From Candidatus Rokuibacteriota bacterium (GTDB lineage: Bacteria > Methylomirabilota > Methylomirabilia > Rokubacteriales > CSP1-6): 59,483 nucleotides of DNA. Below the pieces are notes generated by a model that ran no database searches, was not told the origin of the DNA, and was given only the letters and a program-made list of their open reading frames with translations. A program made the translations under genes and the position numbers. The number at the start of each line of letters is the position of its first letter. The first letter of the stretch is position 1. Of the stretch, positions 38,336 through 42,439 are shown in pieces. The stretch spans positions 1-59,483 of the forward strand of contig JACPDG010000065.1 in assembly GCA_016184125.1 (NCBI GenBank), in the 5' to 3' direction.

Positions 38336-38483
38336 CCCCGACATGCTCCAGGGTCTCCGCAGCATGAGGGGGAGCGCGCGTGGACGCAAGGGCCACCCGG
38401 GGGCCGTCGTTTCTTGATGATCACGGGGGCCGGCACGCTCCATAATGTGCGGCGTCACAGAGACCGATCGGGCGGAGGGGCCG

Positions 38484-39179
38484 ATGAGCGGCAGCGGCAG
38501 CAGTCGACGCCACGCACGACGTACGAACCTGCAGCAGGCGGCGTCCACGATCTTCGTGCTGACCGCGCTGCTGCCGCTGCTGATCTTCGTCTGGATCATC
38601 TACGTCCTGGACGCGATGCACGACGTGCGCGTCCAGGTCGGCCTCGGGCTGTCGCTCCTGGTGTCCATGCTGGGCTTCGCGATCCTGAGAATCACGATGC
38701 GCCGGACCTCCGAGGTCCTCCAGCTCCTCGTGCGTGCGGAGGCCCGGCCCGCGGTCCGGCCGGCCGCCGATATCCCGGCCGGTGCGCCGGCAGCCGGGCA
38801 GGGCGCCGTCCGCCCCCCCGCCGACCGACAGCCGTCCGCCGCCTCCGCACCAGCCACGCCGCCCGCGGCAAGGGCCGAGCGGAAGAGCGCGGGCCACTCC
38901 GTCGACGTCGCGCCCGCGATCGGCGCGATCCAGGAGTTGCACGACGCGGCCGAGGCCGTGATCCGTCGCTGGCGTCGCGAGGCCGAGGTGCTGCTCGGCA
39001 GACCGGTCATGGTGCACGTCGAGAACCTGGATCAGCCGGAGTGCGGCATTCTCGCGCGCGTCAGCGAGGTCGGCATCGTGCTGGAGCAGGAGGGGCAGGA
39101 GTTCGGCGTGATGTGGAAGCTGATCGCGTCGATCGAGCTCGACCCGCTCATCGAGCCGGCGGCCCAACCGGTCGGCTGA
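38484..39179 (+). CDS. Uncharacterised two-helix membrane protein with C-terminal cytoplasmic domain
   Basis: 231 residues. A basic N-terminus (SSRRHARRTN) is followed by two membrane helices (residues about 22-45 and 53-72), a Pro/Ala-rich linker (about 95-140) and a compact C-terminal domain with HVENLDQPECGILARVSEVGIVLEQEG, which looks like a small beta-barrel. I recognise no family. GGAGGGG lies 3 nt before ATG 38484; ATG 38445 is an alternative. It is 104 bp upstream of the AmmeMemoRadiSam fusion on the same strand and may be its partner. Confidence 0.65.
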   Translation: MSGSGSSRRHARRTNLQQAASTIFVLTALLPLLIFVWIIYVLDAMHDVRVQVGLGLSLLVSMLGFAILRITMRRTSEVLQLLVRAEARPAVRPAADIPAGAPAAGQGAVRPPADRQPSAASAPATPPAARAERKSAGHSVDVAPAIGAIQELHDAAEAVIRRWRREAEVLLGRPVMVHVENLDQPECGILARVSEVGIVLEQEGQEFGVMWKLIASIELDPLIEPAAQPVG

Positions 39180-39283: not shown

Positions 39284-42200
39284 ATGGGGCGCGTCGTTGT
39301 CCTCCCCCCCGACACCGATCTCGAACCGGACGGAACCCGGGCCGGCGGCTGGTGGCATGCCAGCGATGCGGCCGGACGCATCGTCTGCGACCTGTGCCCG
39401 CGGGCGTGTCACCTCCAGCCCGGGGCGCGCGGGTTCTGCTTCGTGCGCGAGAACCGCGACGGCCGGATGGTCCTCACGACGTACGGTCGCAGCACCGGGT
39501 TCTGCGTCGATCCGATCGAGAAGAAGCCGCTGAACCACTTCTTCCCCGGCACGAGCGTCCTGTCGTTCGGGACGGCGGGCTGCAATCTCGGCTGCCAGTT
39601 CTGCCAGAACTGGTCGATCTCGAAGTCGCGAGAGACGGAGCTCCTGAGCGAGCGCGCGACGCCGGACATGATCGCCGCGGCGGCGCAGCGCCTGGGCTGC
39701 ACCAGCGTGGCGTTCACGTACAACGATCCGGTGATCTGGGCGGAGTACGCGATCGACGTCGCGCGCGCGTGCCGCGCTGCGGGCGTCAAGACGGTCGCGG
39801 TCACCGCCGGGTACATCACGCCCGCCGCGCGCGAGCCGTTCTTCTCGGTGATGGACGCTGCGAACGTCGACCTGAAGGCATTCACCGAGGAGTTCTACCG
39901 GCGTCTGACGCTCGCCCACCTCCAGCCCGTCCTCGACACGCTCCGGTGGCTCCGGGCCGAGACGGACGTCTGGTTCGAGATCACGAACCTCGTCATCCCG
40001 GACGCGAACGACTCGACTGACGAGCTCGAGCGGATGTGCGCGTGGATGCTGGACGCGCTCGGTGACGCGGTGCCCGTGCACTTCACCGCGTTCCACCCGG
40101 ACTTCCGCCTCCGCGACCGCGGGCGCACGCCGCAGGACACGCTGCTGCACGCGTGGCGGATCGCGCGCCGCGCCGGTCTCAAGTACGTCTACGTCGGCAA
40201 CGTCGACGACGTCACGCACCAGAGCACGTACTGCCCGCACTGCGGCCGGATGGTGATCGAGCGCGACTGGTACGAGCTCGGCCGCTACGACCTCACCGGC
40301 AGCCGGTGCCGGCACTGCGGCGGGCCCGTCGCCGGGCGGTTCGGCGAGTCACGCGGGACCTGGGGACGCCGTCGCCTGCCCGTCCGCATCGCGCAGCTCG
40401 CTCCGCCCGCGTCGATACGGCCCCCGTCGTCGAGAAGGGCCACCATGACAGCGCTTCCCGTTCTCACCGAGCAGCAGGAGCGCGCGATCCACCAGGCGGC
40501 GTGCGCGATGGTCGCCGCGGCAGCGATGCGACGCCCCGTCCGGGCGCCGGACCCGACGTTCGGCGGCGCCGCGGCCGAGGCCGTCTCGGGCGCGTTCGTC
40601 TCGCTCAAGCGGCGTGGCCGTCTGCGCGGCTGCTGCGGCGTGATCGGCCAGGCCACGACCGTCGCGGCGGCGGTCACGCGCGCGGCGGCGCGGACCGCGA
40701 CGGAAGACGTGCGTCTGCCCGCCGTGTCGCCGACCGAGCTCGGCGCGCTCGACCTCGAGGTCTGGCTGCTGTCGGAGCCGGAACCGATGCGTGCGCGCGG
40801 CGAGCAGCGCCGCGCGCACGTCGTCGTCGGACGGCACGGGCTCTACGCGCGGCGCGGCACGATGAGCGGCCTGCTCCTGCCTGGTGTCGCCGTGGAACAC
40901 GGGCTCGACGCCGAGCGGTTCCTGGAGCAGGTGTGCGTGAAGGCGAACCTGCCGCCGACGGCGTGGAAACAGGACGACGTCGAGATCGGCACGTTCGAGG
41001 GCGTCGTGATCGGGGCTCGCTTCGACCCCGCGATCGCGAAGACCGCCGAACCGCCCGCGTTCATCGACGGCATCGCCCTGGCGACGCTCGCCGACCACTG
41101 CCGGCAGAATCTCGTCGATCTCGCACGCGGTTTCCTCGGCCGATGCTACCTGCCCGGCGGCGCCGAGGGCACGGTCCATGCGGTGTCGATCGCCGTGCGC
41201 GTGCCGGGCGACACGGACACGCTCCGCTTCTCGAAGCTCTCGCTGCGTCCCGGGCTGCCGCTTCAAGCGACGCTCTACGAGCTGGTGGAGCGCGCGGCCC
41301 GGACGATCGCGTCACGGGCCAGCCTCCCCGAGCCACCGGTGGGATTCGAGCTGGACGCCACGGTCCTCTGGGATCCCGCGATGCACGGCGCGGTGGCCGA
41401 CCCCGATCTCGACGGCCTCGATCCCGCAACGCGTGCCGTGCTCGTCATCGAAGGCCGGAAGTCCGCGTGGGTGCGGGATCCCGGCGCGACACCGCACGCG
41501 CTCATCGCGACCGCCGCGCGCGAGGCGCAGGTGCGGAATCCAGGCGCAGCGCTGGTGCTCGGCCTGGCCGCCGTGTCCACGGAACTCTCCGTCGTCGTGA
41601 CCGACGTGCCGCGTCCCGAGCAGGGCGAGCGCACGCGGCCGGCGGCCGTCGCGGGTGGCTTCTATCCCGGAACGGCGCGCGACCTGGCCCGCATGGTCGA
41701 CGGCCTGCTCCCCGGCGGCGACCTCCGGCGTGAACCGCGGCCGGCGATCATGGTCCCGCACGCCGGCCTCCAGTACTCCGGAAGGATCGCGGCGGCCACC
41801 TACGCGCGCGTCGTCATCCCCGACACCGTCATCGTCCTCGCGCCGAGGCACCACCGCATGGGCGCGGAGTGGGCGGTCGCGCCGCACGACGTCTGGTCGA
41901 TCCCTGGTGGCTCCATCCCGTCGGACGTCGCGCTCGCGCACGAGCTCGCCGAGGCGATCCCCGACCTCGCCCTCGACGCCGTGGCGCACCAGCGCGAGCA
42001 CGCGATCGAGGTCCAGCTCCCCCTGATCGCGCGGCTGGCGCCGCACGCCCGCGTCGTCGGCATCGCGCTCGGATCAGGCGATCTCGCCCGCCTGCGACAG
42101 CTCGCGACGGGCCTGGCCGACGTGCTTCGCGCGCGCCGGGACCGGCCGCTCCTCGTGATCTCGACCGACCTGAACCACTTCGCGACCGATGCCGAGAACC

Positions 42201-42439
42201 GCCGGCTCGACGCCATCGCGCTCGCGGCCGTGGAACGCCTCGACCCGGCCGACGTGTACGAGACCGTCGTCGAGCACCGGATCAGCATGTGCGGCCTGTT
42301 CCCGGCCGTCGTCGTCCTCGACACGCTGCGACAGCTCGACCTCCTGCACGCGGCCGAGCGCGTCGCCTACGGCACGAGCGCCGACGTCACGGGCGACACG
42401 AGCCGCGTGGTGGGCTACGCGGGCGTGGTGTTCCGATAG
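39284..42439 (+). CDS. AmmeMemoRadiSam triple fusion: radical SAM enzyme + AMMECR1 + unassigned domain + Memo
   Basis: One uninterrupted 1051-residue reading frame. Residues 30-350: AmmeMemoRadiSam radical SAM enzyme, with an N-terminal cysteine cluster (Cys35, 38, 42, 52), the CX3CX2C cluster Cys100/104/107 in AGCNLGCQFCQNW and a paired-Cys knuckle (317/320 and 342/345). Residues about 393-590: AMMECR1, with LRGCCGVIG at 448-455. Residues about 595-775: beta-rich region I cannot assign. Residues about 785-1051: Memo domain, with AGGFYP, His826 in VPHAGLQYSG, HQREHAIEVQLPL, Asp962/His965 in STDLNHF and Cys1003. These three proteins are usually separate genes of one system of unknown chemistry. 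ATG 40445 could start a second shorter product, but no ribosome site precedes it. Confidence 0.93.
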   Translation: MGRVVVLPPDTDLEPDGTRAGGWWHASDAAGRIVCDLCPRACHLQPGARGFCFVRENRDGRMVLTTYGRSTGFCVDPIEKKPLNHFFPGTSVLSFGTAGCNLGCQFCQNWSISKSRETELLSERATPDMIAAAAQRLGCTSVAFTYNDPVIWAEYAIDVARACRAAGVKTVAVTAGYITPAAREPFFSVMDAANVDLKAFTEEFYRRLTLAHLQPVLDTLRWLRAETDVWFEITNLVIPDANDSTDELERMCAWMLDALGDAVPVHFTAFHPDFRLRDRGRTPQDTLLHAWRIARRAGLKYVYVGNVDDVTHQSTYCPHCGRMVIERDWYELGRYDLTGSRCRHCGGPVAGRFGESRGTWGRRRLPVRIAQLAPPASIRPPSSRRATMTALPVLTEQQERAIHQAACAMVAAAAMRRPVRAPDPTFGGAAAEAVSGAFVSLKRRGRLRGCCGVIGQATTVAAAVTRAAARTATEDVRLPAVSPTELGALDLEVWLLSEPEPMRARGEQRRAHVVVGRHGLYARRGTMSGLLLPGVAVEHGLDAERFLEQVCVKANLPPTAWKQDDVEIGTFEGVVIGARFDPAIAKTAEPPAFIDGIALATLADHCRQNLVDLARGFLGRCYLPGGAEGTVHAVSIAVRVPGDTDTLRFSKLSLRPGLPLQATLYELVERAARTIASRASLPEPPVGFELDATVLWDPAMHGAVADPDLDGLDPATRAVLVIEGRKSAWVRDPGATPHALIATAAREAQVRNPGAALVLGLAAVSTELSVVVTDVPRPEQGERTRPAAVAGGFYPGTARDLARMVDGLLPGGDLRREPRPAIMVPHAGLQYSGRIAAATYARVVIPDTVIVLAPRHHRMGAEWAVAPHDVWSIPGGSIPSDVALAHELAEAIPDLALDAVAHQREHAIEVQLPLIARLAPHARVVGIALGSGDLARLRQLATGLADVLRARRDRPLLVISTDLNHFATDAENRRLDAIALAAVERLDPADVYETVVEHRISMCGLFPAVVVLDTLRQLDLLHAAERVAYGTSADVTGDTSRVVGYAGVVFR

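Follow-up and report, generated by a model that had tools for sequence, protein, structure and literature searches.

A conserved single-chain fusion of a radical SAM enzyme, AMMECR1 and Memo, with a predicted second AMMECR1 fold, in a Candidatus Rokuibacteriota genome

Introduction

Both AMMECR1 and MEMO1 have been linked to disease, and relatives of the two occur not only in humans but also in bacteria and archaea. Together with a radical S-adenosylmethionine (SAM) enzyme, hereafter rSAM, such relatives make up the AmmeMemoRadiSam set (TIGR04335, TIGR04336 and TIGR04337). Contig JACPDG010000065.1 of a Candidatus Rokuibacteriota bacterium (assembly GCA_016184125.1), of which we analyzed positions 1 to 59,483 (the window), carries one gene in which the three components appear to be joined. 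Is such a fusion real, how common is it, and does it mean that the three parts work on a common substrate? A preliminary description made from the sequence alone had proposed that the parts cooperate directly and knew of no described three-way fusion. Here we examine these claims by profile searches, comparison of genomes and modelling of the full chain.

Results and Discussion

The fused gene and its hidden fourth domain

All three AmmeMemoRadiSam models exceed their curated cut-offs in the 1051-residue protein, that for AMMECR1 reaching 123.1 bits against a cut-off of 99 (TIGR04335, residues 406-574) and that for Memo 248.1 bits against 26 (TIGR04336, residues 785-1050), and the Pfam results agree with those from NCBIfam. 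PF04055 recognizes the rSAM domain at 63.8 bits (cut-off 29.5), which together with the CxxxCxxC motif places it in the radical SAM superfamily. The presence of the three components in a single frame, as first described, is thus confirmed. An assembly error or a chance frame can be ruled out, as 26 intact loci of other genomes also carry these domains in the identical order within one frame. Across the whole genome (G000; 4.09 Mb in 121 contigs, 92.8% complete) there is a single AMMECR1 and a single rSAM of the TIGR04337 family, both within the fused gene, and two Memo matches, one in the fused gene and the other a paralogue on a different contig.

The order of the three domains was correctly described, but the junction of AMMECR1 with Memo was not: residues 576-784, which carry no family assignment, include a separate folded domain that had been missed (X, at about residues 592-769). 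It was modelled with a predicted local distance difference test score (pLDDT) of 88.9, which rules out a mere linker, and no domain-length profile match was found that would make it a second copy of Memo or rSAM. When the model was compared with known structures, X matched the fold of the AMMECR1 crystal structures 1vaj, 1zq7 and 1wsc; profile comparison with AMMECR1 gave a weak result with a narrow profile (probability 7%, E 0.005) and a probability of 86.5% with a wider one. From model and profile comparison we therefore predict that residues 592-769 form a second AMMECR1 fold. The domain has motifs of its own, SLRPGxPLQ and DPAMHG, and a search of the PDB with its sequence returned nothing credible (best E 0.69). 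We did not obtain a clear case of a stand-alone X protein from a profile search that scored 8000 candidates and gave four hits, three of them on short contigs and the fourth (P0123, on a 318-kb contig) resembling a broken copy. X is a cryptic part of AmmeMemoRadiSam that Pfam annotation has overlooked.

To evaluate residue conservation we aligned 54 fusions, 28 from the 120 proteins listed in the database search described below and 26 from genome loci. The earlier statement that the iron-sulfur, AMMECR1 and Memo motifs are intact was borne out, as the cluster cysteines, the RGCxG residues and the metal ligands are all invariant (Table 1). LRGCIG is given as the conserved AMMECR1 motif in PMC5502304, and PMC11081632 names H49, H81 and C244 as the iron ligands of human MEMO1 and reports no dioxygenase activity for that protein. 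Judged by alignment, the Memo domain of the fusion keeps this His-His-Cys set.

Distribution and origin of the fusion

A protein database search, in which 7993 candidates were scored, returned 1521 proteins in the length range of the fusion at E<=1e-20, and among the 120 matches listed, the window protein included, every one carries PF04055, PF01871 and PF01875 (120/120). The source name of 27 of these 120 gives three parts, of which the first two are rSAM and protein B and the last reads "uncharacterized" for P0086, and the nine listed rows with an organism in the source name all belong to Planctomycetes. The fusion is real, conserved and common in protein databases, where it has in part been named automatically, and it is not a new kind of system. 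Its supposed rarity did not survive these counts; as for its characterization, neither this nor a description of the fusion was found in the literature searched, a scope outside which most subscription papers lie. A study of the Memo superfamily by Burroughs et al. (2019) is relevant here and may discuss such fusions.

We also retrieved genome loci with six peptide patterns taken from the window protein, and kept 80 of 117 confirmed. rSAM and AMMECR1 share one frame in 31 of the 80, and the other 49 have a separate rSAM frame. Thirty of the one-frame loci are titled Planctomycetes and one (L002) Candidatus Rokuibacteriota, in a search that finds close relatives and cannot confine the fusion to two phyla. 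Twenty-six are intact and full-length, all with the same domain order (26/26), whereas the remaining five either run into a contig end or have a broken Memo part. Two Planctomycete fusions, L019 (2285-5644) and L022 (1985-5237), are interrupted by a stop or a frame change in the Memo part, be it through assembly error or real decay.

The locus that best matches the window protein is L002 (69%), and locus L176 of G044, a genome of the window genome's own family, has the same rSAM core, at zero branch length from L002. Within the phylum of the window we found the whole fusion in two of 95 genomes (G000 and G044), with a third (G054) cut by a contig end. In a tree of 121 rSAM cores, built with FastTree and rooted at the midpoint, the window protein takes a deep position within the fusions, with P0002-P0009 as its nearest relatives, and the separate rSAM genes of its own phylum are far away; all fusion cores except that of L021 group together, with weak support (0.51). 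The simplest reading is that the fusion gene probably entered Rokubacteria by transfer from a Planctomycete-like donor.

Which parts belong together

We next counted the components in 94 of the 95 genomes of the phylum (G081 left out), which are drafts and related to one another and include the two whole fusions. The limits, 100 bits for rSAM and 160 bits for Memo, were set after inspection of the tables, so the p-values are descriptive. Of the 52 genomes whose rSAM reaches at least 100 bits, 44 also have Memo above 160 bits, vs. 6 of the 42 other genomes (Fisher 3.5e-12), and AMMECR1 is present in 19 of the 52 vs. 1 of the 42 (Fisher 2.8e-5); when only rSAM over the curated cut-off is considered, the numbers are 34/39 for this class of Memo and 15/39 for AMMECR1. 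Memo also lies close to a separate rSAM in six fetched loci (L087, L091, L092, L093, L097 and L099). These counts, together with the genomes that lack AMMECR1, make it likely that rSAM and Memo are the core of the system and AMMECR1 an accessory, and point to the active sites of rSAM and Memo as the pair to be tested together first.

The Gemmataceae locus L021 (5884-9180) bears on the same question. In a tree of fusions only, its AMMECR1, X and Memo parts branch among those of other fusions, but the fusion profile gives its rSAM 239 bits vs. 656-757 bits for the rSAM of the other 25 intact loci, and in the rSAM-core tree this rSAM groups with the intein-bearing rSAM branch of the window's phylum (support 1.0). 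Here another rSAM stands in a fused arrangement that was either retained or built anew, and we take this as support for a functional coupling of the parts.

A proposed working and its alternatives

We propose that the single rSAM-AMMECR1-X-Memo chain is a self-contained enzyme that carries out successive steps on one bound substrate, a proposal to which we would give an even chance. The rSAM domain would cleave SAM and abstract a substrate hydrogen, the canonical AMMECR1 domain could bind or present the substrate or an intermediate via its RGCxG cysteine, X would bridge AMMECR1 and Memo without being catalytic in the manner of AMMECR1, and the His-His-Cys metal site of Memo would complete the reaction. 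The fusion may in this way substitute for co-expression and complex formation of three genes. Direct cooperation of the fused parts, as originally proposed, is favored by the conservation of the fusion across many Planctomycetes. In addition, a single chain with a fixed ratio of its parts is a practical tool to find the substrate: one gene, one protein, SAM and extracts.

Several observations weigh against this proposal. Modelling of the full chain had been suggested as a way to see whether the three active sites face a shared cavity. The chain could be modelled (mean pLDDT 88.8), but the arrangement of the active sites was not fixed: the predicted template modelling score (pTM) was 0.62 and the cluster loop, residues 101-120, was poorly modelled (pLDDT 54-63), which in this model leave the mutual orientation of the domains unfixed and a shared cavity not shown. 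A radical product may or may not pass from the SAM domain to the Memo metal site, an example given in the preliminary description; the evidence speaks neither for such a transfer nor against it. rSAM and Memo occur without AMMECR1 in 26 genomes, so that a compulsory three-step relay is not general; moreover, the counted Memo class is absent from 8 of the 52 rSAM genomes, and 6 genomes have that Memo and no comparable rSAM. Regarding X, it lacks RGCxG and has a consensus SLRPG near the corresponding place; it has no PF01871 or other Pfam match at a maximum E of 10, in searches where the HMMER filters discard most weak matches, and in plain HMMER the wider AMMECR1 profile, among the three proteins listed, did not match the window protein a second time and reached no better than E 0.97 in P0010. 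Finally, we know of no family member with an established substrate, product or activity.

The strongest alternative, which we nevertheless consider unlikely, is that the fusion is a genetic convenience that ensures equal amounts of three proteins whose domains act independently on different substrates. A disordered and poorly conserved linker between rSAM and AMMECR1, the absence of a fixed domain arrangement (as judged by the pTM), an rSAM domain that can be swapped, as in L021, and the frequent absence of AMMECR1 are all congruent with it. On the other hand, rSAM co-occurs strongly with Memo, all 26 intact fusions fetched share one domain order, and in the full model no disordered stretch separates AMMECR1, X and Memo, the junctions that follow AMMECR1 and precede Memo being ordered.

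A role in peptide or protein modification, in which a ribosomal peptide would be held by the AMMECR1 pair and modified by rSAM, appears quite improbable to us. PMC7159879 mentions Memo-Ammecr1 systems and places a related rSAM domain in peptide-processing conflict systems. Nevertheless, no neighboring frame of 110-900 residues is widely shared among the fusions, with several loci having short flanks and short frames, such as those of precursor peptides, lying outside this search; where a neighbor group spans more than three loci, its members (first 14 per group) overlie the fusion gene itself.

A third possibility is that the rSAM domain is an activase resembling the pyruvate formate-lyase (PFL) activating enzyme, which would place a glycyl radical on G1044 in the SRVVGYAG end of Memo and so make Memo the radical enzyme. 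Outside its own family, the rSAM domain matches best the activases of glycyl radical enzymes (TIGR02493, E 1.5e-14, then YjjW and PFLE), all far below the cut-off, and the PFL activating enzyme is the sole rSAM structure matched by sequence. The tail of Memo resembles the PROSITE glycyl radical motif R-V-[CSA]-G-Y, with a valine at the bracketed place. VVGY is present in 24 of the 29 intact Memo ends among 30 loci (L108-L137), and in a second Memo class (L138-L157), 18 of whose 20 fetched ends come from genomes without rSAM, no end has the glycine (0/20) and all have serine or threonine (20/20). However, the glycine is not strictly kept wherever the activase is present: five of the 29 ends (L112, L117, L119, L124 and L131) read VVAY despite an rSAM over the cut-off in their genomes, and this counts against the idea because alanine cannot carry a glycyl radical. 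Conversely, genomes G013, G014 and G018 keep VVGY without a credible rSAM. Since the differences between the two classes of Memo extend throughout, the glycine contrast may simply reflect ancestry, and the model puts G1044 at the beginning of a beta-strand. We regard this possibility as very doubtful. The five Memo proteins ending in VVAYAG all belong to one genus (g28). The second, divergent Memo-like protein (L138, at G000:C5:115500-119500, and L139-L157) has frames of about 416 residues and longer, and occurs in many genomes of the phylum, including the 18 fetched that lack rSAM. Least credible of all is a self-activating radical enzyme, in which the activase-like rSAM would place a glycyl radical on the RVVGY strand of its own Memo domain; Memo would then be a metal-assisted glycyl radical enzyme of a new kind, and the two AMMECR1 domains in tandem would carry the substrate.

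Inteins in separate rSAM genes and the neighborhood of the fusion

Long rSAM frames in relatives could be mistaken for another three-way fusion, but those checked proved to be inteins. The intein-like insert is found in the separate rSAM gene of 11 genomes of the window's phylum (L092-L101 and L104/L105). It sits directly ahead of the third CxxxCxxC cysteine (...HCxY / Cys ... Asn / Cys...), so that formation of the iron-sulfur site would have to await splicing. We recognized the downstream junction in all 11 genomes and both junctions in seven loci. The Pfam profile Intein_splicing, run on four loci, was over its cut-off in L094, just below it in L096 and L097, and lower in L092; LAGLIDADG_3 was over its cut-off in L092, L094 and L096, and L097 resembles a mini-intein. 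Among the matching titles listed in the literature searched, none concerned such an intein.

In the window, a frame of 244 residues (38445-39179, + strand) with a coding-like base composition ends 104 bases upstream of the fusion gene and has no match to Pfam.

Table 1. Positions of the fused gene, its domains and its conserved motifs in the window.
Feature	Position	Strand	Basis
Complete fused gene, 1051 residues plus stop	39284..42439	+	ATG start, no internal stop
Radical SAM domain (TIGR04337), residues 23-369	39350..40390	+	584.9 bits, cut-off 220
N-terminal motif C35-x2-C38-x3-C42-x9-C52	39386..39439	+	Invariant in 54 fusions; putative metal role
Radical SAM cluster motif C100-x3-C104-x2-C107 (CxxxCxxC)	39581..39604	+	Invariant in 54 fusions
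Paired CxxC at rSAM C-terminus (C317/C320, C342/C345)	40232..40318	+	Invariant in 54 fusions; putative metal role
Disordered linker rSAM/AMMECR1, residues 375-389	40406..40450	+	Sole run of at least 3 residues with pLDDT <50, full model
Canonical AMMECR1 domain (TIGR04335/PF01871), residues 406-575	40499..41008	+	NCBIfam and Pfam profiles
LRGCCG (447-452), AMMECR1 domain	40622..40639	+	L447, R448, C450, G452 invariant in 54 fusions
Predicted second AMMECR1-fold domain (X), without RGCxG, residues ~592-769	41057..41590	+	Profile comparison, model
Memo domain (TIGR04336/PF01875), residues 785-1050	41636..42433	+	NCBIfam and Pfam profiles
Metal ligand H826 (H49 in human MEMO1)	41759..41761	+	Alignment; invariant in 54 fusions
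Metal ligand H856 (H81 in human MEMO1)	41849..41851	+	Alignment; invariant in 54 fusions
Metal ligand C1003 (C244 in human MEMO1)	42290..42292	+	Alignment; invariant in 54 fusions
C-terminal SRVVGYAG (1040-1047)	42401..42424	+	V1043, G1044, Y1045 invariant in 54 fusions

Comparison with known systems

With all three components over their cut-offs, the fused protein is an AmmeMemoRadiSam system, but one in which a single chain with an extra domain replaces what are often separate or partly joined genes, such as the loci (L074-L076 and L078-L081) where Memo and AMMECR1 share one frame beside rSAM. The Planctomycete fusions, with titles such as Pirellula, Gimesia and Gemmataceae, have the same order and the same fourth domain, with a best-segment identity of 44-66% in the intact loci; their host differs, the window genome standing beside Rokubacteria. 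As for known structures, 1vaj, 1zq7 and 1wsc match the canonical AMMECR1 domain by sequence and X by fold, while X differs from them in its missing RGCxG and its own motifs. Human MEMO1 (7kq8), which is not a fusion, shares the His-His-Cys ligands with the Memo domain.
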